In this document: positions 26,817-55,058 of the stretch, piece by piece
How positions within the stretch are numbered: position 1 is the stretch's first letter
How the letters are laid out: each line of letters opens with the position of its first letter
Assembly (NCBI RefSeq): GCF_008370495.1
Contig: NZ_VTUX01000007.1
Coordinates: 248,001 to 312,000 of the forward strand
Direction: 5' to 3'
Length of the DNA: 64,000 bases
Source: Pseudohalioglobus sediminis
GTDB taxonomy: Bacteria; Pseudomonadota; Gammaproteobacteria; Pseudomonadales; Halieaceae
The notes under the pieces: model-generated
The model's input: only the letters and a program-made list of their open reading frames with translations
Told to the model about the DNA's origin: nothing
Databases searched by the model: none
Position numbers and translations under genes: made by a program

Positions 26817-28403
26817 ATGACCCGACTAAATACACTTGCCCTGCTGTTTTGCCTTTTTTCCGTCTCCGCCTGCAGCGAACCACCGCCGGCGAATACTGCT
26901 GCTGAGCCGGGTGCCGTCAGCGCGGACACCGCCAGTATGGACGCCCCGGGCACGAATGCCCCGGGGCAAGCCGACGCTCCAGCATCGCTTGCACCGAGCC
27001 CCGACGAGGAGGCGCTTGAAACGCCAAGAGTATTCGGGGAAGCCTGGACGGGTGATCTCGACGTCATGGAAGAGCGCCGGGTTATCCGCATGCTCACGGT
27101 CTACACGCCCGGCCGCTACTACCTGGAAAGTAACGGTGAGGAAAAGGGGCTGGTGAAGGAAATGGCCAGTCGCTTCGAAGACTTCATCAACAAGGAGCTG
27201 AAGCGCAAGACCGTAAAGGTGAACGTGGCGATTATCCCCATGGCCCGCGGTCAGTTGATACCCGCACTGCTGGCAGGCCAGGGTGACATCATCAATGCCG
27301 GACTCTCCATTACACCGGAACGGGACGAACTTGTCGATTTCAGTATCCCGGTAAGCAAACCGCTGTCCGAGGTGCTTATCACCGGACCCACGGCAGAGCC
27401 ACTGGCCGACATTGAGGATCTCTCCGGCAAAACGCTGTATGTGCGCCAGTCCAGTAGCTATCGCGAGAGTGTGGAGGCCCTGAACCAGCGCCTGCAGGCA
27501 AAAGGTAAAGCGCTGGTGCATATCGAGCCGGTGTCCGAGTTCCTGGAAGATGACGACCTCATCGAGATGGTAGACCGGGGCCTGCTGCCCTGGGCAATTG
27601 TTGATGATTACAAACCCCTGCTCTGGAAAGACGTATTCGCCAACATTACCGTGCGCGACGATATCGTGTTCAGGGAAGCGGGGCGCATCGCCTGGGTCTT
27701 TCGCGAGGACAGCCCGCAGCTGGCAGCGGCGCTGAACAAGTTCCTGAAGCAGAACCGCGAAGGTACGCTGATCGGCAACGTACTCAGGAATCGCTATATC
27801 CGCGACTTCGACTGGGCCGCCAACGCCCTCGATGATTCCGACTACCGTCGCTTCCTGGAACTGGAGCACCTGTTCGAGAAGCACGGCGAGAAGTACAACG
27901 TCGATTACCTTATCGCTGCGGCACAGGGCTACCAGGAGTCACGCCTTGACCAGAGCGCACGCAGTGCCGCCGGGGCCATCGGGATCATGCAACTGCTGCC
28001 CTCGACTGCCCGCGACAAGAACGTCGGTATTCCTGATATCCACGAGGCCGACGCCAACATCGAGGCCGGCATCAAGTACCTGGACTTCCTGCGCCAGCGC
28101 TATTTCAATGACCCGGAAATCACCCGTGTAAACAAGACGCTCCTCGCCCTGGCGGCGTACAACGTGGGTCCTTCTCGCATGATCAACCTGCGCAACAGCG
28201 CGGCGAAGAAAGGCTACGACCCCAACGTATGGTTCGACAACGTGGAGCTGGTCGCCGCCCGGGAGGTCGGTCGCGAGCCGGTGCAATACGTGGCCAATAT
28301 TTACAAGTACTACCTCGCCTATCGTTTCAGCCTCGCCCAGCAGGCTCGCCACGCCGAAGCCCGTGCGCGCGCGGGCATGAGTCCCTATCGCTCCGAGGAC
28401 TAG
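26817..28403 (+). CDS. MltF-like membrane-bound lytic transglycosylase
   Basis: Lipoprotein that would cleave peptidoglycan glycan strands, about 528 residues. The signal ends in the lipobox SVSAC, followed by a Pro/Ala-rich linker. Residues of about 80-330 form a periplasmic substrate-binding-protein fold (family 3). The C-terminal SLT domain has the catalytic Glu in YQESRLD, then AAGAIGIMQLLPSTA and ALAAYNVG. This domain order is that of MltF (518 residues in E. coli). An ATG at 26787 would lengthen the signal peptide by ten residues. The 3' end overlaps the convergent metallohydrolase gene by 4 bases. Confidence 0.9.
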   Translation: MTRLNTLALLFCLFSVSACSEPPPANTAAEPGAVSADTASMDAPGTNAPGQADAPASLAPSPDEEALETPRVFGEAWTGDLDVMEERRVIRMLTVYTPGRYYLESNGEEKGLVKEMASRFEDFINKELKRKTVKVNVAIIPMARGQLIPALLAGQGDIINAGLSITPERDELVDFSIPVSKPLSEVLITGPTAEPLADIEDLSGKTLYVRQSSSYRESVEALNQRLQAKGKALVHIEPVSEFLEDDDLIEMVDRGLLPWAIVDDYKPLLWKDVFANITVRDDIVFREAGRIAWVFREDSPQLAAALNKFLKQNREGTLIGNVLRNRYIRDFDWAANALDDSDYRRFLELEHLFEKHGEKYNVDYLIAAAQGYQESRLDQSARSAAGAIGIMQLLPSTARDKNVGIPDIHEADANIEAGIKYLDFLRQRYFNDPEITRVNKTLLALAAYNVGPSRMINLRNSAAKKGYDPNVWFDNVELVAAREVGREPVQYVANIYKYYLAYRFSLAQQARHAEARARAGMSPYRSED

Positions 28404-29866
28404 TGCTGCACTTCCGGGCTTTCGAGGCGGGCGGCGGTGTCAGCCATGCGCGACTGCAGCCAGTAGATTTCGTAGTCGTTGCGCAATCCGCCCTCCGCCG
28501 CCTCCAGTAGCGTCGCCAGCGCGCTCTGGCGTAGCGCCAGGGCACCTGCGTCCGCCGGCTCCGCGGCCAGCATCACCTCGATCACGTGCAGGCTCCTGAC
28601 CGCCTCACCGGCAGCAAGATAACCCTCGGCAAGCTCACGTAAGCCATCGTTGCCGGCCAGCCGGGCCAGGTCAGCGTATATCTCCCGCGCCGGCACGGGG
28701 TAGAGCTCGGTGGTGCTGTCGAAATGGAACCAGGTCATGTAGTAGTCCCAGATACTGCGCACGGCCCAATCCACTTTGCCGTGATTCTGCACCAGCTCCA
28801 GTTCCGGGGGCAGCGCAATTTCACGCATCAGCTGGTACACCGTCTTGCCGGCGTTCATCCCGGCAACCGTCTGGTCGTGAACATACTGCACCGCGTCGCG
28901 TATGCGCTGCATGTCGCTGGCAATTGTCTCGGCGCCGGACGTAGGGTCGAGATGACTGGGCACCACCGTTTCAATCCCCAGTGGCAACAGGAAATCGAGC
29001 GACTTCACATACTCAATGGGCTTACGTACTTTCTCTCCGCGCATGGTGAAAATATTGGGGAACTGCGGAAACTGCGGGCCGAAAAAATCGCCGCTGAGCA
29101 GCATTTTCTGCTGTGGCAGCCACATCACCAGGTTGTCGGCGCCCTCGGCACCGGGAGTACCGAAGACCTCAAACTCTACGCCGCCCAGGCTAAAGGCGAA
29201 TTTTTCCCAGTCGCCAACGGTGAGCGTGGGTTCGATACCGCCATAACGCATCATGGCGATGTCCGGGCGATCCTCCCAGGCAGGCATCCACGGAAACAGG
29301 GTGCGATTGCGACCGTACTGATAGGGTTCCAACTCGGAAAGATAGCGCTGCTCTTCGACAAATGCCTCGTGGGTGATAATGCGCGTTTGCGCATCGGCAA
29401 AGAAGCGCGTGCCGCCGGTATGATCCGCGTGTGAATGACTGAGTACGATGGTGTGCACGGGCGCATCCGATACCGCCTGCAGTGCCGCCAGCTGCTTGGG
29501 CGTTTGCAATACCAGGCCGGTGTCAAACACCACGTTCCCGGCACTGGTAGTGACCATGATCACATTGCCCACACCCGTGGCCATATACACATTGTCGCTG
29601 AGCTTGCGCACCTCAACCGGCCGCCTGATCAGTTCCACGGCACTGCCATGAGTTGCATCATCGTTCATTTCACCACCCAGGCGACGCGTCGCGGCATCAC
29701 CGATAGCATCCAGCGCGGCCAGTTGCGCGGTTTTCTTGATGCCACTGCCGGCCTCCTCATCGAGGTATAGCCAAAGCGCTCCCAGTGACAGTGCAGCAAG
29801 CAATACAAGCAGTACTACCCTGGCGCGGCCACCGCTGAAAAATGGGTTTCGATAGGTCGTTGTCAT
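28400..29866 (-). CDS. Membrane-anchored alkylsulfatase-like metallo-beta-lactamase-fold hydrolase
   Basis: 488 residues. One N-terminal transmembrane segment (about residues 17-34) points the protein to the periplasm. The metallo-beta-lactamase motif HSHADHTGG carries the zinc ligands, and SGDFFGP carries the bridging Asp. After residue 310 comes a helical segment (DYYMTWFHFDSTTELYP) like the dimerisation domain of SdsA1-type alkylsulfatases. The start overlaps the DUF3604 stop (ATGA), so translation is coupled. It may act on sulfate or phosphate esters. Confidence 0.85.
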   Translation of the reverse strand: MTTTYRNPFFSGGRARVVLLVLLAALSLGALWLYLDEEAGSGIKKTAQLAALDAIGDAATRRLGGEMNDDATHGSAVELIRRPVEVRKLSDNVYMATGVGNVIMVTTSAGNVVFDTGLVLQTPKQLAALQAVSDAPVHTIVLSHSHADHTGGTRFFADAQTRIITHEAFVEEQRYLSELEPYQYGRNRTLFPWMPAWEDRPDIAMMRYGGIEPTLTVGDWEKFAFSLGGVEFEVFGTPGAEGADNLVMWLPQQKMLLSGDFFGPQFPQFPNIFTMRGEKVRKPIEYVKSLDFLLPLGIETVVPSHLDPTSGAETIASDMQRIRDAVQYVHDQTVAGMNAGKTVYQLMREIALPPELELVQNHGKVDWAVRSIWDYYMTWFHFDSTTELYPVPAREIYADLARLAGNDGLRELAEGYLAAGEAVRSLHVIEVMLAAEPADAGALALRQSALATLLEAAEGGLRNDYEIYWLQSRMADTAARLESPEVQH

Positions 29867-32064
29867 GGTGCCTCCTCAGCGGGCGCTACGAAAAGGGGTG
29901 ACGACCAGGCGCGCTGCTGGGCTGGCGCCAGGCAGTCATCTTCTGCCGGGGTACGGTAATCGCCATAGCAGGGGTTCACTGCCACGCAGTTGCCCTGCTC
30001 ATCGTACTCACAGCGCAGGTTGTCTGCATTGATCATCGCGGTCGTCTCCTGAATGGCGCGGGCGTAATACACCACCTCGCGCGCTTCATCGCGGAAGGCC
30101 TCGTCAACGAATTCTGCTGTGCACTCGAGGACGCCAGGCTCGCAATCGAAGGTCCGCCAGGGATCCTCCACCAGGGTCTCGACGGCTTCACCGGGGTAAC
30201 TTTGCCGACGAATACGCACAATCTCAATGCGATCCATCTGCCAGCGTTCGTCACCTGGGTTATAGCATTGCCCTGCACACAACGAGGCAACGCGAGCCTC
30301 GCCCAGGCCAGTGTAGGCGTGTTCAGGGCAGCCGGGTTGCTGCTTGAAATCACCGATCGCGCTGACCCGGAAGCGTGGGTTGCCCGTAACCAGCACCTCT
30401 GACCCCATCGGCACCTCGTTGCCGCCCTCTAGCAGGTCGAACCAGAGCAGGATGCGGTCACCGGATGTGGCATACACTTGGCGACGCTTGAGGCTGTCCC
30501 AGATCGCGTGGCGATCTCGACCCTGGCTGTGGGCTGCGACCAGGCCACCGGTGAGCCAGAATGAATTCTGCCTCTCCATATTGCGCGAATTCTGCAGGCC
30601 CACGCTATTGTCCGCATCCAGGGCAACGGAGAAAGGCTCGGGATCACGCTGATCGCCCACGCGCCGGGCCAGGCGCGGATTTTCGGCGCCAAAGGACTCG
30701 GTCATGAACTTGCGCGCGACCTCCTTGTAGCCGGTACCGGGCTGGCTGCGGTGATTGTCACTGGAGCCAATAAAACCGAAGCGAAAATTCAGTGGTCCCT
30801 GGCCGGGCTGGAAACCGGTGATGGCCAGGGCATATTGCGCTGAGGTGGCGGGCCGGTGATCCATCGGTTCGTTAAAGCAGTCGCTACAGGTACCACAGTT
30901 CAGCCAGTCCACAACCTGCTGTCCCGGCACGGTGAGGTGCCCGGAGTTGCCGGCGTCAACGAAGTTCTGTCTCGCCTCGAACTCCCTGCGCTGGCACTCT
31001 GCCGGGCTCTCGCCAGACGCCTCACAGCGCCGGCGTATTATCTGCCCGGCGCGATGACAGCACGGCATATAGTCATCCCAGGGCTCCGGGCAAACCAGGC
31101 CACCGTCATCACCGCTTACCGCCGCGCGCCAGCGGCGATACTCTTCGGCGTTGCCGTGACCGGAATATATTTCAAACAGTATCTGGCGGCGGGGGTCGTG
31201 CTGCTGCAGATTCAGTTGCTTGTCGAAGCGCGTTCCGGCTGGCGTATTCATGCCCCAGGTATTGCCGTGTGGAATGACCAGGCTGTCAAAGCCCCACTGA
31301 TCCAGCTTGGTGAACAGCTCTCTGGGGTCGCTGGCGACCTCCAGGCAATCGTCTGGCAGCGCCTTCACATTCACGCCCTGCTCACACAGGGGGGTGTCAG
31401 CTATTTCGTCGTAATAGCCCTGTATGCCCAGGTAAAATTCGCGATTTTCGAAATCCATTAGTGACATCATCAACTGTGACACCCGACCTATGGGTGCCCG
31501 CGACAGCCTTTCGCGTGGTGCCGCAATGGCGCGACTCGGCACCGAGCCTTCCGCCGTGTCCAGGAAGATGACGTTCTTGTGGCCATAATGCGTAGCCGGG
31601 TCAGTGCTTACCTGGCTCCATTCCCACCCCAGGAACGCGACCAGGTCGGGATTGTCGGAGTCGCCGGCAGCGGCGTTGCACTCGCGAATACTCTCACGCG
31701 TCTCCGCCCAGCGCCGCGGCGTCAGCCCTTCCGCGTGGTCGTTGATAGACCAGAAATCCAGGCCGGAGCAATAGCGGGCAAAGTCACAGGCGTCGGCGGG
31801 TGGATGCAGACCGGTACCTCCGGTCAGCGGCGTGGACATAATGAAAGCATCCGGCGAGAACGTGGTGTGCACATGCAGGTCGCCAAACAGTATCTGGCCT
31901 TCTACATCGGGGCGAACCGTTGCCTGGCGCTGTGCCCGCTCCTGCAACACAGTGTCCGCGAGCGCCGCACCCTGGATCTGCCCCCTGCCCTGGGGTTCTT
32001 CGCATCCGCACAGGGCGATCATTGCAAGCAGCATCGCCAGCGACCCGGCATTGCACCATCTCAT
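29863..32064 (-). CDS. DUF3604 lipoprotein
   Basis: Large exported protein of 733 residues, family function unknown. The signal ends in a lipobox (ALCGC). The segments GDLHVHTTFSPD and SINDHAEG match the metal-binding start of the PHP-like phosphoesterase fold seen in DUF3604 proteins. A later FGFIGSSDNH fits another metal site. There are many cysteines (for example CGTCSDCF and CEPGVLEC), suggesting disulfides in the periplasm or at the surface. It is translationally coupled to the alkylsulfatase-like gene, which suggests that both act on the same ester-containing substrate. Confidence 0.87.
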   Translation of the reverse strand: MRWCNAGSLAMLLAMIALCGCEEPQGRGQIQGAALADTVLQERAQRQATVRPDVEGQILFGDLHVHTTFSPDAFIMSTPLTGGTGLHPPADACDFARYCSGLDFWSINDHAEGLTPRRWAETRESIRECNAAAGDSDNPDLVAFLGWEWSQVSTDPATHYGHKNVIFLDTAEGSVPSRAIAAPRERLSRAPIGRVSQLMMSLMDFENREFYLGIQGYYDEIADTPLCEQGVNVKALPDDCLEVASDPRELFTKLDQWGFDSLVIPHGNTWGMNTPAGTRFDKQLNLQQHDPRRQILFEIYSGHGNAEEYRRWRAAVSGDDGGLVCPEPWDDYMPCCHRAGQIIRRRCEASGESPAECQRREFEARQNFVDAGNSGHLTVPGQQVVDWLNCGTCSDCFNEPMDHRPATSAQYALAITGFQPGQGPLNFRFGFIGSSDNHRSQPGTGYKEVARKFMTESFGAENPRLARRVGDQRDPEPFSVALDADNSVGLQNSRNMERQNSFWLTGGLVAAHSQGRDRHAIWDSLKRRQVYATSGDRILLWFDLLEGGNEVPMGSEVLVTGNPRFRVSAIGDFKQQPGCPEHAYTGLGEARVASLCAGQCYNPGDERWQMDRIEIVRIRRQSYPGEAVETLVEDPWRTFDCEPGVLECTAEFVDEAFRDEAREVVYYARAIQETTAMINADNLRCEYDEQGNCVAVNPCYGDYRTPAEDDCLAPAQQRAWSSPLFVAPAEEAP

Positions 32065-32281: not shown

Positions 32282-32854
32282 TTACTTCCGGGCTGCGGCC
32301 TTTTTCTTGGGTGCGGCCTTCTTCTTGGCAGCGGCTTTTTTCTTGGGTGCTGCTTTTTTCTTGGCAGCGGTTTTCTTTTTCGCAGCAGCCTTCTTCTTGG
32401 GGGCAGCCTTTTTCTTGGCCGCGGTCTTCTTCTTGGCCGGCGCTTTTTTCCTGGTATTGGCTGAAGCCTTCTCCACCATGGCGGCTGCCTGGTCTGCAGC
32501 CTTTGCCTTGCGCTGCTCGAGGATCAGGTCCGCCCTCACCGAGGTGTAGCGCTGCGCAGCCTCATATGCAGCCTTGGCAATACGCCCTACCGACTCGGCG
32601 AGTTCCTGAACCTGTTTTCTCAGTTCATCCACCTTCTTCTGGTTCGCCGGAGTGGCTTTCTTTTTCAAAGCTGCCCGCGCTGAACTCAAGCGCTTGTTCG
32701 CCGTGGTGTGACGCTTGCGCGCGGCCTGCAACTCACGCTTGGCTTTGGCATGAGATTTTTCTGATTCCGCTACCAACTTCTTGCGAAGTTGCTCAACTTT
32801 TTTATTAGCCTGGGAGGCCATTTTTGTGGCCTGGGCCAGTTCTTTTTCCAACAT
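32282..32854 (-). CDS. AlgP-like histone-H1-type basic protein
   Basis: 190 residues in two parts. The N-terminal 120 residues are predicted coiled coil rich in Lys, Ala, Glu and Gln (for example QANKKVEQLRKKL). The C-terminal 50-60 residues are tandem Lys/Ala/Pro repeats of the AAKKKAAPKKK type, resembling the tail of histone H1 and of Pseudomonas AlgP (AlgR3). Probably binds DNA non-specifically. I favour the ATG at 32854; a GTG at 32875 would add seven residues. The repeats are prone to slippage, so tail length may vary between strains. Confidence 0.85.
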   Translation of the reverse strand: MLEKELAQATKMASQANKKVEQLRKKLVAESEKSHAKAKRELQAARKRHTTANKRLSSARAALKKKATPANQKKVDELRKQVQELAESVGRIAKAAYEAAQRYTSVRADLILEQRKAKAADQAAAMVEKASANTRKKAPAKKKTAAKKKAAPKKKAAAKKKTAAKKKAAPKKKAAAKKKAAPKKKAAARK

Positions 32855-33019
32855 TGCTGCTCTCGCTCTGTTCACTCAGGAAGTACCGCAAAAGTAGTGT
32901 AGGCTTAAACTGCGTATAAGTAACGTACATTTTTTGACCTGCATCATGCCGGGCTGCAGTTTCATTGATAGTGTCAACGTAATCAAAAATTATCAGCGAA
33001 TACCCTGGAGAATAAACAC

Positions 33020-33732: not shown

Positions 33733-33757
33733 AAAAAAGCCACCCGCAGGTGGCTTT
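33733..33757 (-). terminator. Rho-independent terminator of the cytochrome/beta-helix operon
   Basis: AAAGCCACC-CGCA-GGTGGCTTT: a perfect 9-base stem with a 4-base loop. Reading leftwards it ends in six T residues. It lies 19 bases beyond the stop of the beta-helix gene. It may also work weakly for the DsbA-like gene on the other strand. Confidence 0.85.
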
Positions 33758-33776: not shown

Positions 33777-35297
33777 CTACTTGGTCAGTTCCAGCATAAA
33801 TTTCGCCGCTTCCAGCAAGGTCTCGTCATCGAGATGACCCTGCGGCGGCATCTCCGGATAATCGTCCCGCTTCTTCACCGGGCTGGCAGCGTAGGCCGCG
33901 ATGCCTTCCGGATTGTCCATATACAGGGCCTGTATGATCTGCGTGGGCGGCCCGATCATACGTGAACCGTAGGCGTGGCACCCGGCGCATACGCCGTAGT
34001 AGGCCAGCTTGCCCTTTTCCATGTTGCTCTCGTTGAGACGCGGCGGCACCGGTTCGGGCAAGGTGTAGGTCAGCACGCTCTTGGTGTTGGCAAAATCACA
34101 CTCGCCGTAGTTGTCCAGTCCGAGGGTCCGGTAACGCTCCGGGTTGAGGATGCAGCCGTCATCCATGCCCACGGTGTCGACGATATCAGGACCGCGCGTC
34201 AACATCTGTGTGGCCAGGATGGCGCGCACCACGGGTGCCGGGTTGTTGCCATTGTCCTGCATGATGTTGTTGAGGATCTTGGGACGATTGGGATTGGGGT
34301 CCGCATCCTGGTCCTTGGCCGCGTTGCCGGCCAGTGAGAAGTCGGTAAAGGTGATACCCACGGAATCATTGCCGCTAATGATATTTTGCTCCACCACGAC
34401 ATCGTCGCAGGCCATCACCAGCACGCCGGTGCCGGACGGGATATTGGAAACCAGGGATCCGGGAATGGCAAAGTTCTCGTGGTTGTTGTCGACCACAAAG
34501 TTGTTTCGAATAATGACATCGCCGCAGGTCTTGATGGGCAGCCCGGGCGTTATGAACGCGAGAATACCGCCGGTGTTGTTGTACACAAAGTTACCTTCCA
34601 CCAGGGCGGCACGGCTGTTCTCGATCTCGATACCGGCGACGCTGTCAAATACCTGGTTGTAAACCACATCAACGTTATCGGACATGCCGACATAGATAGC
34701 GGCGTCTTCGATACCGGAGATAACGTTGTGGGCCACGATACCGTTCTTACCCAGCTGCGGGAAAATGCCATACACACCGGTGTCGACGATAATGTTGTTG
34801 CGGATGATGTAGTTGTTACCCGCCTGCCCCATGATGGCGTTGCCCTTGTACTTGGTGATGTACAGGTTCTCAACCGTCACCCCGTTGCCGGAGTACAGCA
34901 CGGCATCGTTGCGCACGCCCTCGCCATCCATCACCGGGTAGTTGCCCCGCTCGATCACACCGGAGAGCGTGATATTGTCCTTGTCGATATAAACCGTTTC
35001 CCTGTAAGTGCCGGGCATCACCTTGATCACGGCGCCGGGCTGTGCAGCCTTGACTGCATCCTGGATGGACTCACCGTCCTTGACCACGATCAGCTCACCA
35101 CTGGTCGGTGTTTCCCAGGCGCGCACGCTTACCGCGCCTGCCGCTGCGGCGACTTCTGCAGCACCGGTAGAGGTGAATTCCGCCTTGGGTGCAGTAGGCA
35201 CCTTGATAACAGTGGGTTCCGGTTGATTCGACTTGCCGAGGTAGTAACCCCCGCCAAGCAGAACCAGGGCGCCGACGATGGCTACGATTTTATTCAT
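33777..35297 (-). CDS. Parallel beta-helix protein fused to a C-terminal cytochrome c domain
   Basis: 506 residues. An N-terminal hydrophobic segment with GGGYYLG looks like an uncleaved anchor or signal. Residues of about 55-350 are right-handed beta-helix repeats rich in NN, IIRNN and VYNN turns, starting with the carbohydrate-binding-like SIQDAVKAAQPGAVIKVMPGTY. Residues of about 425-506 are a monoheme cytochrome c with CAGCH and a likely axial Met in YPEMPPQ. A GGAGAAG site precedes the ATG, which overlaps the peroxidase stop by 8 bases. Beta-helix domains of this kind are of unknown function. The fused heme suggests electron transfer to or from the helix-bound substrate. Confidence 0.85.
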   Translation of the reverse strand: MNKIVAIVGALVLLGGGYYLGKSNQPEPTVIKVPTAPKAEFTSTGAAEVAAAAGAVSVRAWETPTSGELIVVKDGESIQDAVKAAQPGAVIKVMPGTYRETVYIDKDNITLSGVIERGNYPVMDGEGVRNDAVLYSGNGVTVENLYITKYKGNAIMGQAGNNYIIRNNIIVDTGVYGIFPQLGKNGIVAHNVISGIEDAAIYVGMSDNVDVVYNQVFDSVAGIEIENSRAALVEGNFVYNNTGGILAFITPGLPIKTCGDVIIRNNFVVDNNHENFAIPGSLVSNIPSGTGVLVMACDDVVVEQNIISGNDSVGITFTDFSLAGNAAKDQDADPNPNRPKILNNIMQDNGNNPAPVVRAILATQMLTRGPDIVDTVGMDDGCILNPERYRTLGLDNYGECDFANTKSVLTYTLPEPVPPRLNESNMEKGKLAYYGVCAGCHAYGSRMIGPPTQIIQALYMDNPEGIAAYAASPVKKRDDYPEMPPQGHLDDETLLEAAKFMLELTK

Positions 35298-36504
35298 GGT
35301 CTTCTTCTCCGTTGTTGATGTCGCCGGCATCGGCAACTTCAAAATGCACCAGCCCCAGCCCTGATGGCAACTGCCGGGGTGGTTCAGGTTTGAAACTCTC
35401 GTCCGTCAGGGTTTTGAGGAAATCCACCAGCCGGTCCAGTTCCTCATCGGTCAGGTTCGGTTCCCAGATGTGCCAGTGTATCTTCAATTCTTCGCCTTCG
35501 GGTACCGCGTGACCACGCCCACCCGTGTAGAACGCCACGGCCTCGCGCAACGTAGCAAAGCGACCCGAGTGCATATACGGCGCGGTCAACTCTATATTGC
35601 GCAGTGTCGGCACCTTGAACCCGCCGCGCTGGGTTGGTTCGTTCAGGGGCACTTCCGCACCGGGGTCAAAGGGCATGCCTACGGGCTCCGGCGTGCCGAG
35701 TACCGCGATCTGCTGATTGGTAAACAGCGGGGGTGTATGACATTCGGCACAGCGGGCGACAAAAGAACGGAAGATGTTCAATCCCTCTATCTCGGGCTCC
35801 GTCAGGGCATCGGCGTAGCCGTGTGCATACTGGTCGTAGCGACTGTTAAGCGAGATCAGGGTCACCTGGAACGCGGCTATGGCCGCGTAGACCTGGTCCA
35901 ACCTGATCTGCGCATCCGCGGCCACGAAATCTTCGGGGTAGGCCTGGGCAAACAGCTGGCGGTAGGCCGGTAGACCGTTCAGGGTCTCCAGCAACAATTG
36001 CGGGTCACTGCCCATTTCATGTTTGTCGAACAGGGGGCCCAGCATCTGCCCCTCAAGGGAGGTGGCGCGTCCGTCCCAGAAGAAACTATTGAGGAAAGCC
36101 ACATTCCATAGTGTCGGCGCCGAGCGCGGCAGCACCGAGCCGTTGATACCCACACTCCGACCGAGCCCGTCGGAAAAGCCTTTGTCAGGCGCGTGGCAGG
36201 TGGCACAGCTGACCGTGCCATCACGGGACAGCACCGGGTCGAAGAACAGGTAGCGGCCGAGATCGGTCTGTTGCGGTGTGAAGCCGTCCCGCCACTGTGG
36301 CAGACCGGTTTTCAGGCCACCGACCCCGGCGTCCTGCAAGGATGGGTACATCTGGTAAAGGCTGCGCAACTCACAGTGGCCGGCAGTCAGCTCAAACCCC
36401 GGCGGACAGTCGTCATTGAGCACAATCGGCTCACCCGCGGCACCGGCGCCAGCAGCAGCGCCAAGCAGCAGGGGGATAAATATGAGCTGCAGCAGGTGTT
36501 TCAC
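35290..36504 (-). CDS. Diheme cytochrome c peroxidase / MauG-family protein
   Basis: 404-residue periplasmic protein with a signal peptide. Two heme sites, CATCH near residue 99 and CAECH near residue 257, plus the family segments FDPVLSRDGTVSC, WDGRATSLEGQ and TAPYMHSGRF. The family either reduces H2O2 to water with electrons from small cytochromes (CcpA) or oxidises protein side chains (MauG). An extra N-terminal stretch with a Cys pair (CPPGFELTAGHC) and a Pro/acidic C-terminal tail are unusual. The GTG start lies 2 bases after the c4-type cytochrome stop. Confidence 0.9.
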   Translation of the reverse strand: MKHLLQLIFIPLLLGAAAGAGAAGEPIVLNDDCPPGFELTAGHCELRSLYQMYPSLQDAGVGGLKTGLPQWRDGFTPQQTDLGRYLFFDPVLSRDGTVSCATCHAPDKGFSDGLGRSVGINGSVLPRSAPTLWNVAFLNSFFWDGRATSLEGQMLGPLFDKHEMGSDPQLLLETLNGLPAYRQLFAQAYPEDFVAADAQIRLDQVYAAIAAFQVTLISLNSRYDQYAHGYADALTEPEIEGLNIFRSFVARCAECHTPPLFTNQQIAVLGTPEPVGMPFDPGAEVPLNEPTQRGGFKVPTLRNIELTAPYMHSGRFATLREAVAFYTGGRGHAVPEGEELKIHWHIWEPNLTDEELDRLVDFLKTLTDESFKPEPPRQLPSGLGLVHFEVADAGDINNGEEDHE

Positions 36505-36506
36505 GC

Positions 36507-37142
36507 TCAGTCCTGTGGCGCCAGGCTACGCAGGTAGGCAACCACATCTTTCACTGCCTGCTCGTCCGGCAACACTGCCGCCATGGCGCGCATCTGCCTG
36601 CCAGTCTTGTCCTCGGGATGAGAGCCGCGATGCCCGCCACGGAATGAAAGCAACTGCGCCTGCGTGTACCAGTCGTCAGCACCCACGAGTCGGGGCGAGT
36701 TCAGCGCCGGGTTACCCACCCCACCTGCACCGTGGCAAGCGCCACAGAACTGGTTGTAATAATCTGCACCCATTGCCACATCACCGGACACCGTCACCGG
36801 CGATGACGGGCTGTCCAGGCTGGCTATATATGCGGCCACGTCGGCGATGGCCTTGGCATCCGCCAGGGTGGCAGCCATCGGCGCCATCTGCTTGGAGATG
36901 GCAGTATCACCCTCTCCTCCGCGTATACCGTCGCGGAACTTCTGCAATTGTGCTGCTATATACACCGGTTCGAGGTGATTGAGGCGCGGCGCATTCAGGG
37001 CCTGGTTGCCCTGGGCACTGTCTCCGTGACAGGCAATGCAACTGGCATAGCTCGCCTTGCCAGCGTCCAGGTCGTCAGCGGCCACAGCGCCGGCAAACAC
37101 TGCCAGGGCGAGGGCAGCTACCATCTTTTCGAGTAAATTCAT
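36507..37142 (-). CDS. Diheme c4-type cytochrome
   Basis: 211 residues. A signal peptide ends near AVAA. Two homologous cytochrome c domains have CIACH and CGACH, each followed by an N-A-P/S-R-L segment and a Met ligand region (KQMAPMAATL; RQMRAMAAVL). This is the cytochrome c4 arrangement, a common electron donor to periplasmic peroxidases and terminal oxidases. GGAGA lies upstream of the ATG at 37142. First gene of the three-gene leftward operon and the likely electron partner of the peroxidase. Confidence 0.92.
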   Translation of the reverse strand: MNLLEKMVAALALAVFAGAVAADDLDAGKASYASCIACHGDSAQGNQALNAPRLNHLEPVYIAAQLQKFRDGIRGGEGDTAISKQMAPMAATLADAKAIADVAAYIASLDSPSSPVTVSGDVAMGADYYNQFCGACHGAGGVGNPALNSPRLVGADDWYTQAQLLSFRGGHRGSHPEDKTGRQMRAMAAVLPDEQAVKDVVAYLRSLAPQD

Positions 37143-52931: not shown

Positions 52932-55058
52932 CTAGAAGCTATAGCGAATGCCAGCCTCTATAGAGCGACCGGCCTCGGGAGCGATGTCGCGCAGGAAGGA
53001 GGTACTCAGGCGAATCTCCTCATCGGTGACATTGTTGAAGTTCACGAACGTCACCAGATCGCCTCCGCCCACGGGCAGGCGGTAATCCACGCCGAGGTCC
53101 CAGCGGGTATAGCCCTCGGTAGCCGCTTCGTTATCACCGGGACGATTCTGGTCTGCAGCATCAACCACGCGGCCCCAGACGTCCCAACTTTCGCTAACCC
53201 AGTTCAGGCGAGCACCGAGCCGCCGCGGGGGCAGCCGCGGGACATCACCACCACTTTCCAATTCGCCGCGCGTCAGGTCACCGAACAGCCCCAGGCGCAG
53301 GTCCCCGGGACCGATAGCCGCGAGGGTGAAATCGGTATCGAGTTCGATCCCCCAGAACGAGGCGTCTTCCTGGTCGTACACATAAACGGCGACCTCATCT
53401 ACTTCAGTGCCCGTGGACATCAGCCCGATATAATCACGAAAATCGTTGTAGTAGAGGTTGATGGCAACGTGATGGCCATCGCCCTGCCAGTCAATACTGA
53501 AATCCACGTTGCGCGAGGTTTCCGTGTCGAGCGCGGCGTTACCGATCTCTATGGCGTTAGTTGCCGCATGCACAACCAGTTCTTCCGCGTCGCGTGCCTC
53601 CACATTGGAATAGAGCTCTTCGGTTGTAGGCGCGCGCTCCGCCAGCGACAGCGCCAGGCCCAACTGCCAGGCTGGCGTCAAATCCCACAGTGCCGAGCCG
53701 GACGCGCTGAGGGAGTTGAAACTGTTGCTGTCAGCCGCATAGGTGTCGGGGTCGCGCTCGGCATAGTCGTAACGAGCGCCCAGCTCGAAGGTCCAGTCTC
53801 CGCTGTGGTAGTCCTCCAGCAGAAACAGCCCGAGCTCCTGGTTATCCGTAACCGGGATAAACGCCTCCTCACCGAGCGCGCTGAATTCTCCGGAGATAAG
53901 CTGCGCGCCTATCACGCCGTGAAAATTGGCAACCGTGTCGTGCACCAGCTCCAGGCGGCCTTCCCAGGCTTCATTCGCATAAGTGGTACCGATTTCACCG
54001 GAACCTTCTATTTCACTGTGCTCGTAATCGGTGTAGGTGAGAAAACCGCGAAATACCTCTACGCCGGCGAAAGGTTCATGCCAGTGCAGTGCCGCGTCGT
54101 AACGGGTCTGCTCCACGTCGAGGGTGACGCCATCACCATGACCGTGCTCATCCTCTTCATGGTGCTCTTCATCATCGAGGTGTTCTTCATCCTCGAGGTG
54201 CTCGTCCTCATCGTGATCTTCATGCTCGTGGTCTGCATGGGCCCCTGCCGGAATACCGTAGCGATTTTCCAGGCGGTTGACCGCAAGGCCAAAGAAACCC
54301 GAATCAAAATGGTAGCTTCCGCCGAGGGTCAGGCTCTTGGTGCGGCCGCCGGTGTTGGCCAGCACCCCCTTGCGCTCGCCCTCTTCCCCGGCTTCGTGCG
54401 CTTCGTGGTCCTCGTCATGGTCATCATGCTCCGCCTCGGTGGAGGCGTAGCCGGGAATATCCATGTCGTTCCAGTCCCGATACAGGGCATCGGCGTGAAT
54501 CGCGAGGTTGCCGCTGCTGCCGTCGAAACGCGCAACCACGTTATCCATGTCCGTGGCGCTGTCGTGGCGGTATTCCACGGCGCCGGTGGGCTCATCGGGC
54601 AGGGAAGTGGGTATGCGGTTGTCGAGCACGTTGACCACCCCCCCTATCGCGCCGCCGCCATAGAGCAGGGTGGCGGGACCGCGCAGGATTTCGATGCTGT
54701 CTGCCAACAAGGGCTCAACAGACACCGCGTGATCAGCGGACAGGTTAGAGGCGTCGGCACTGCTGGTGCCGTTCTGCAGCACGGTGACCCGCGCGCCCTG
54801 CTGGCCTCGAATCACCGGCTGACCAACGCCGGGCCCGAATGAGGCATTGGCCAGCCCCGGAGTCGTCCCCAGGGTATCGCCCAGGGTGCTGGCCGCGGCA
54901 CGGCTGAGCGCGTCACCGGACAAGACGGTAACTGGCAGGGCGGTTTCAGCGGTTTTCTTGTGCAGAGGAACAGACACCAGCACGTGTTCGAGGGGCAGCT
55001 GCTCGGCAGCCGCGTTCGCCGCGGCAACAGCCACGGCAATCGGTACAAGACGTTTCAT
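52932..55058 (-). CDS. TonB-dependent outer-membrane receptor with His/acidic loops (ZnuD-like)
   Basis: 708 residues with a signal peptide ending near NAAA. The plug domain has TVLSGDALS, GQPVIRGQQGARVTVLQNG and SIEILRGPATLLYGGGAIGGVVNV. The barrel ends in the outer-membrane signature with C-terminal Phe (RYSF). Two extracellular loops are packed with His, Asp and Glu: about residues 205-222 and 272-309. These loops resemble the zinc-catching loops of ZnuD. It probably imports zinc or another divalent metal. The ribosome-binding site CAGGAG is held in a hairpin (see 55065-55102). Confidence 0.92.
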   Translation of the reverse strand: MKRLVPIAVAVAAANAAAEQLPLEHVLVSVPLHKKTAETALPVTVLSGDALSRAAASTLGDTLGTTPGLANASFGPGVGQPVIRGQQGARVTVLQNGTSSADASNLSADHAVSVEPLLADSIEILRGPATLLYGGGAIGGVVNVLDNRIPTSLPDEPTGAVEYRHDSATDMDNVVARFDGSSGNLAIHADALYRDWNDMDIPGYASTEAEHDDHDEDHEAHEAGEEGERKGVLANTGGRTKSLTLGGSYHFDSGFFGLAVNRLENRYGIPAGAHADHEHEDHDEDEHLEDEEHLDDEEHHEEDEHGHGDGVTLDVEQTRYDAALHWHEPFAGVEVFRGFLTYTDYEHSEIEGSGEIGTTYANEAWEGRLELVHDTVANFHGVIGAQLISGEFSALGEEAFIPVTDNQELGLFLLEDYHSGDWTFELGARYDYAERDPDTYAADSNSFNSLSASGSALWDLTPAWQLGLALSLAERAPTTEELYSNVEARDAEELVVHAATNAIEIGNAALDTETSRNVDFSIDWQGDGHHVAINLYYNDFRDYIGLMSTGTEVDEVAVYVYDQEDASFWGIELDTDFTLAAIGPGDLRLGLFGDLTRGELESGGDVPRLPPRRLGARLNWVSESWDVWGRVVDAADQNRPGDNEAATEGYTRWDLGVDYRLPVGGGDLVTFVNFNNVTDEEIRLSTSFLRDIAPEAGRSIEAGIRYSF

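Follow-up and report, generated by a model that had tools for sequence, protein, structure and literature searches.

Near-constant pairing of a MauG-like dihaem enzyme with a beta-helix/cytochrome c fusion marks a second branch of the TIGR03805 family

The 64,000-nucleotide stretch analysed here (the window; positions 248,001 to 312,000 of contig NZ_VTUX01000007.1, assembly GCF_008370495.1) comes from Pseudohalioglobus sediminis, a member of the Halieaceae, and contains a leftward operon of three genes, for a predicted dihaem cytochrome c4, a MauG-like dihaem enzyme, and a protein that fuses a right-handed beta-helix domain to a monohaem cytochrome c domain. The fusion belongs to TIGR03805, a catalogued and curated family without known function, and the module is a second, MauG-linked branch of this known kind. 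The enzyme and fusion genes form a near-constant pair in the genomes examined, and SO2930, the haem partner in the other branch, is absent from their loci.

A scan of 84,980 species genomes with short peptide patterns, which does not list all relatives, matched 106 stretches and gave 53 confirmed loci. Close relatives of the fusion (52 to 90% identity) were carried by 46 of the 53, the nearest of them (86 to 90%) including Seongchinamella, Pseudohalioglobus, and strain HTCC2148; seven distant loci (L079 to L085, ~32% identity) were excluded from the pairing count. The MauG-like gene lay directly upstream of the fusion gene in 46/46 close loci and the c4 gene was present in 41/46. Adding a Ruegeria megaplasmid and 20 stretches of genomes in the order, picked as close fusion relatives before their neighbours were counted, brought the set to 67 loci, all of which had the MauG-like gene upstream on the same strand. 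Reduction at 95% identity left 56 non-redundant loci, the window itself being outside the set; the MauG-like gene was upstream of the fusion gene in all 56, and c4 was present in 46. Fusion (E < 1e-100) and enzyme (E ≤ 1e-80) were searched for separately in 390 genomes of the order; the fusion was found in 56 and the enzyme in 55, all 55 shared, i.e., the enzyme was in 55/56 genomes with the fusion and 0/334 without it. The single genome with a fusion and no enzyme (G045) is an 83%-complete draft. The two genes were linked in 55/55 genomes, 54 times within 300 bp and once at 1.2 kb (the 56 and 55 places were copied by hand). A chance association of neighbouring genes was rejected on the pairing in 56/56 loci and 55/56 genomes. 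The idea that the three genes form a conserved unit, put forward in the original prediction from the sequence of the window, thus held when co-occurrence was checked, with the qualification that c4 is a usual but optional third member. Divergence among the three proteins was correlated (Mantel r = 0.69 to 0.78, P = 0.001), as expected of linked genes, and was not used as evidence. Named hosts include Halieaceae, Thalassotalea, Bowmanella, Alteromonas, Paraferrimonas, Reinekea, a Rhodocyclaceae bin, Solimicrobium, and Ruegeria; the Bacteroidota Kriegella and a Cyclobacteriaceae bin also carry the module, which therefore spans two phyla.

Gene content varies in a few clusters. In the two most divergent ones, an extra gene stands between the enzyme and fusion genes (Ruegeria, L086, 10853-11929; L109, 5029-6099); the Ruegeria gene carries a TPR-protein annotation, and BLAST groups the L109 gene with it. 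Some c4-less clusters have thioesterase-like genes upstream of the MauG-like gene (L123, 2530-4599; L117, 2896-3726), and L123 also has a CoA-transferase-like gene there, all recognised by eye.

The dihaem cytochrome SO2930 (TIGR03806) was found in 26/29 loci of the other TIGR03805 branch and 0/56 MauG-type loci, whereas the MauG-like gene was found in 0/29 and 56/56, respectively. The 29 loci comprise L079 to L085 (SO2930 in 7/7, MauG-like gene in 0/7), the plasmid loci L087 and L088, and 20 further stretches. Three of the 29 were known beforehand—a copy in the window's own genome and a Novosphingobium locus, both with SO2930, and a Hymenobacter locus without it—and excluding them leaves 24/26. 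As we understand it, pairing with TIGR03806/SO2930 is part of the TIGR03805 family description. The own-genome copy is a single 788-aa fusion of TIGR03805 with the TIGR03806 SO2930 (L001, contig C23, 1327-3693), and both branches thus coexist in that genome. The original prediction had called the beta-helix domain one of a kind with no known function; no function was found in open-licence papers, but the family is a catalogued one whose usual haem partner had been overlooked.

Residues of the fusion also separate the branches, as seen in a comparison with 21 of the 29 other-branch loci. Y176, P180, Y202, E224, E226, N227, and F248 are common to both (at least 95% of one set and 100% of the other). 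K106, Y150, K151, M156, M205, and K256 are invariant in 67/67 MauG-type sequences (not de-duplicated) and occur in 0 to 19% of the 21 other-branch sequences. From the MauG-type to the other branch, N153 is replaced by D, M156 by K (95%), F179 by Y, and M205 by Q.

The layout of the operon (Table 1) agrees with the original prediction: coordinates, motif counts, and a terminator scan all support three leftward genes, a 2-base junction between the c4 and MauG-like genes, an 8-base overlap between the MauG-like and fusion genes, a terminator, and five haem-binding CxxCH sites (two in c4, two in the enzyme, and one in the fusion). The longest open reading frames start elsewhere for c4 (TTG 37247) and the fusion (TTG 35342). 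The c4 start was chosen by signal-peptide inspection; that of the fusion is backed by the open-reading-frame starts of many aligned orthologues at the matching column, a few other orthologues having been trimmed to the same column. The scan found five terminator-like sites where shuffled sequence averaged 3.1, and the operon-end site has the most pairs. No promoter-like site was found on the operon strand in the scan. Alignments of 27 fusion, 25 enzyme, and 21 c4 sequences (the window plus 26, 24, and 20 of the 46 loci) have identical CxxCH numbers throughout (27/27, 25/25, and 21/21).

Table 1. Positions of the operon genes, fusion domains, and terminator in the window
Feature	Position	Strand	Details
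Dihaem cytochrome c4 gene	36507..37142	-	ATG 37142, stop 36507; first of the three genes; 211 aa; signal peptide by inspection; CxxCH at C35 and C133
MauG-like dihaem enzyme gene	35290..36504	-	GTG 36504, stop 35290; 404 aa; CxxCH at C100 and C252; Tyr326; H343-W344-H345-I346
Beta-helix/cytochrome c fusion gene	33777..35297	-	ATG 35297, stop 33777; 506 aa; TIGR03805 family
Fusion, N-terminal hydrophobic helix (residues 2-23)	35229..35294	-	Probable membrane anchor, by inspection
Fusion, right-handed beta-helix domain (residues 69-347)	34257..35093	-	Conserved face
Fusion, C-terminal monohaem cytochrome c domain (residues 425-505)	33783..34025	-	C437xxC440-H441; Met483
Intrinsic terminator stem-loop at operon end	33736..33757	-	9-pair stem (33757-33736), then a T-run on the minus strand, after the last stop

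The enzyme is a member of the Pfam family CCP_MauG. Its Tyr326 is invariant (25/25 aligned sequences) and aligns with Tyr294 of MauG and with a Tyr of structure 6e1c, whereas the peroxidase 1zzh has a Met there, which we take to be the axial ligand of the high-potential haem of classical peroxidases. The 1zzh residue that is presumably the gating-loop His of those peroxidases aligns with Ile120, at a position that varies within the enzyme family. Gln153, Pro157, and Glu163 are invariant and align with both 6e1c and 1zzh; we equate them with Q103, P107, and E113 of MauG, an assumed and not an aligned equivalence. The title of structure 6e1c reads "a MauG-like protein associated with microbial copper homeostasis," and we take it to be an MbnH. 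In MauG, Tyr294 is named as an axial ligand in the title of a reference listed in PMC6405878. By its matching position in MauG and MbnH, Tyr326 is the predicted axial ligand of a six-coordinate haem. The motif H343-W344-H345-I346 is invariant in the enzyme family and was not seen in the alignments to 6e1c and MauG. When the C-terminal third of the enzyme was searched alone, 6e1c and MauG ranked ahead of peroxidases. The best NCBIfam match was MbnH (TIGR04039), at 223.4 bits against a cut-off of 362.85 (four orthologues, 192.2 to 226.2 bits, likewise below it); the MauG model (TIGR03791) gave 198.9 bits against 443.85 (four orthologues, 154.8 to 204.3). Identification as MbnH or MauG was therefore rejected, as was identification as an ordinary peroxidase from superfamily membership alone, since the ligand positions differ. 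The predicted structure of the enzyme is of middling confidence (pLDDT 72.4). One MauG-like copy (G030:C1:794740-795819) has an in-frame TAA in the aligned stretch and may be decayed or carry a sequencing error.

The fusion scored 169.8 bits with TIGR03805, above the cut-off of 141.5 (three orthologues, 183.8 to 189.6), and also matches Pfam Beta_helix. Its cytochrome c domain scored 22.1 in Pfam, under the family cut-off of 27, and is called on the invariant C437xxC440-H441 and Met483 together with weak similarity to structurally solved c-type cytochromes. The claim that a beta-helix, a cytochrome c domain, and a membrane anchor are joined in one protein is thus borne out by TIGR03805 membership and the invariant haem motif, the anchor being probable; some orthologues (L070, L073, and L075) begin instead with an apparent cleavable signal peptide. 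The conserved face comprises Y150, K151, M156, F179, Y202, M205, E224, E226, N227, and F248. In our reading of the strand register of the predicted structure, the residues shared by the two branches and those at which they differ sit on neighbouring coils of one face. The predicted structure has a mean pLDDT of 79.5.

The c4 product matches Cytochrom_C in two stretches (Pfam), and Met86 and Met184 are invariant in its alignment. In searches of the Protein Data Bank (PDB), it matched 5lo9 ("Cytochrome C," E = 9.1e-25) and the c4 structures 1etp (7.6e-24) and 6q2u (1.3e-23). With two CxxCH domains, each with a putative Met ligand, and similarity to solved c4 structures, the protein is assigned on sequence to the c4 cytochromes.

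A TonB receptor (model score of at least 450) was found near 21/56 MauG-type loci compared to 0/21 other-branch loci, and an AraC-type regulator near 14/56 compared to 2/29; contig ends make these counts lower bounds. Comparisons of the TonB receptors gave generic siderophore-type similarity only and indicated no substrate. The AraC-type neighbour in Ruegeria resembles QhpR (195.8 bits, cut-off 250), presumably the regulator from the quinohaemoprotein amine dehydrogenase system, and is a lead only. The Ruegeria pomeroyi cluster (SPO_RS20595 to SPO_RS20610 in strain DSS-3) lies a few genes from bhcABCD of the beta-hydroxyaspartate cycle (L086, 907-5255).

It is possible, and it is the account we tentatively favour, that the MauG-like enzyme oxidises its beta-helix partner or a ligand of that partner, with electrons leaving through the cytochromes. 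The operon products would then constitute a periplasmic redox module in which the conserved face of the anchored fusion's beta-helix carries either a bound ligand or a functional site. The enzyme, with a putative His/Tyr-ligated haem, would oxidise residues of this face or the bound ligand, and electrons would reach the respiratory chain via the haem of the fusion itself and, in clusters that have it, c4. The enzyme-fusion pair is near-constant, and c4, TonB, and AraC genes are optional; the simplest account, modelled on MauG with methylamine dehydrogenase and on the MbnH-MbnP, SACCP-MopE, and CorB-CorA pairs, is an enzyme acting on the fusion or its ligand. The module may serve a compound imported across the outer membrane rather than general peroxide defence, an idea raised because a TonB receptor and an AraC-type regulator lie near a minority of clusters. 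Physical contact, high-valent chemistry, the direction of electron flow, and the substrate are all things that we infer. The original prediction had electrons running between the beta-helix protein and the peroxidase, either to oxidise the helix substrate or to destroy H2O2 at a bound surface polymer; the former fits a MauG-like site with a putative Tyr ligand better and the latter less well, since the enzyme has neither the axial Met nor the gating His found in classical peroxidases.

Several observations weigh against oxidation of the beta-helix partner. The haem domain of the fusion is poorly modelled (block pLDDT 38 to 85), and the fusion has no conserved Trp column (the best reach 40% and 51%), so that the Trp chemistry of MauG and MopE is not directly transferable. 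The residues specific to the MauG-type branch are candidates only, much of the fusion being invariant. c4 is missing in 10/56 non-redundant loci, and another upstream same-strand CxxCH gene within ~3.5 kb was found in 0/11 c4-less loci. Neither a TonB receptor nor an AraC-type regulator lies near most loci, the window included. Loci of the set also served to train the TonB model, which found receptors near 7/21 held-out loci and, at a looser score of 200, in 2/21 other-branch loci. Lastly, a PDB profile search with the whole enzyme ranked the peroxidase 1zzh first and 6e1c second, and Foldseek placed the Shewanella peroxidase BccP first, 6e1c fourth, and MauG eleventh, with similar scores. Fold similarity by itself is undecided between peroxidase and MauG-like identity.

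These rankings, CCP_MauG membership, and the usual adjacency of a c4-type donor gene are what one would expect of a periplasmic H2O2 peroxidase supplied with electrons by c4 and by the cytochrome domain of the fusion, the beta-helix only tethering it to the envelope or a polymer. The invariant Tyr in place of the axial Met, the absent gating His, the absence of c4 from 10/56 loci compared to the near-constant fusion, and the TonB and AraC neighbours make this unlikely, though not negligibly so. Somewhat more doubtful is a role in handling copper or another metal, in the manner of MbnH/MbnP or SACCP/MopE, with the enzyme creating or exposing a metal site on the face and the TonB receptor taking up a metal ligand. 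The conserved face has two invariant Met residues alongside Tyr and Glu that could form such a site, M156 and M205 being invariant only in the MauG-type branch; MbnH is the best NCBIfam match of the enzyme, the fusion has weak NosD matches, and PMC3621798 describes TonB receptors near MbnH/MbnP pairs. Yet the enzyme falls below the MbnH cut-off, the NosD-model score (56.9 bits) is far under its cut-off of 300, the window's genome gave no MbnP match, the fusion lacks a conserved Trp, and no metal-handling gene turned up in those neighbours that were scanned or read, most neighbours being unscanned. A bolder and improbable reading is that the enzyme is a maturase, making a protein-derived cofactor out of a Tyr of the beta-helix face that has Lys or Met neighbours (Y150, K151, M156, and M205, invariant in the MauG-type branch alone). 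On this reading the fusion would represent a periplasmic dehydrogenase of a new class, with its own cytochrome domain as immediate electron acceptor, c4 as shuttle, and as substrate a compound arriving via the TonB receptor. Least probable of all, in our view, is a polysaccharide-acting enzyme, in which the beta-helix would resemble AlgE4 or the PL6 enzymes as an epimerase or lyase and the haem parts would supply or remove electrons for an oxidative step. Mannuronan C-5 epimerases and alginate lyases are the nearest Foldseek matches of the fusion, which has a conserved Glu-x-Glu, Tyr, Lys, and Arg, but the similarity is at fold level (TM to query 0.25 to 0.44 and 11 to 17% identity among the 50 matches listed), and the recurrent neighbours, judged mostly by eye, included no recognisable carbohydrate gene.

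Other genes of the window lie outside the operon. A leftward unit (28400-32064) of two genes overlapping by 4 bases encodes a DUF3604 protein and a metallo-beta-lactamase-fold protein. Its inclusion in the operon was rejected: the terminator and a gene on the opposite strand intervene, and a DUF3604 match occurs downstream of the cluster in 3/46 loci (L033, L034, and L042). A Thalassotalea neighbour (L043) has a motif similar to this pair, by eye only. A Lys/Ala-rich protein (32282-32875) has histone H1-like repeats by eye and no Pfam match, and open reading frames resembling it lie downstream of the cluster in 8/46 loci. A ZnuD-like TonB-dependent receptor (52932-55058) scored 434 bits, below the ZnuD cut-off of 950.

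The components of the module were already catalogued; what appears new is the MauG-linked branch of TIGR03805, with its reciprocal exclusion of SO2930 in the loci examined. Open-licence papers yielded no description of the three-gene composition, no published function for a beta-helix/cytochrome fusion, and no mention of the MauG-linked branch, the SO2930 exclusion, or the TonB/AraC neighbours; a search for the Ruegeria tags SPOA0149 to SPOA0154 also found nothing, a weak null because the tags were guessed. To our knowledge, MauG-type enzymes are among the few that can alter the side chains of proteins already folded, and not many of their protein targets are known. The near-universal enzyme-fusion pairing, in the genomes examined and across two phyla, makes the fusion a candidate new target. 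The pairing also places the orphan family TIGR03805 in a redox context, with each branch having its own haem partner, and comparing the branches points to which residues go with which chemistry.

The closest relative is the other branch itself, TIGR03805 with an adjacent or fused SO2930, which has the same beta-helix family, a shared face core, a c-type haem partner, and, near a few loci, a TonB receptor or AraC gene; in the MauG-type branch the fusion carries a monohaem domain, and a MauG-like enzyme, usually with c4, replaces SO2930. Dihaem enzymes paired with partner proteins are described in PMC3621798 for MbnH-MbnP, SACCP-MopE, and CorB-CorA, including the conversion of a MopE Trp to kynurenine, possibly via SACCP. 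MbnH/MbnP (TIGR04039/TIGR04052) likewise combines a Tyr-bearing MauG-like dihaem enzyme with a constant partner gene, often near TonB receptors, whereas the partner here is a beta-helix cytochrome, and a search of the window's genome with an E cut-off of 0.1 gave no MbnP (TIGR04052) match. MauG, which acts with methylamine dehydrogenase (PMC6405878), shares its fold and the axial Tyr294 position with our enzyme; in comparison, the enzyme here scores below the MauG cut-off, and its partner has no conserved Trp. The bacterial cytochrome c peroxidases CcpA, MacA, and BccP belong to the same CCP_MauG superfamily as the module enzyme, which likewise usually has an adjacent c-type donor gene but differs from them in having Tyr for Met, no gating His, and a near-constant beta-helix partner.

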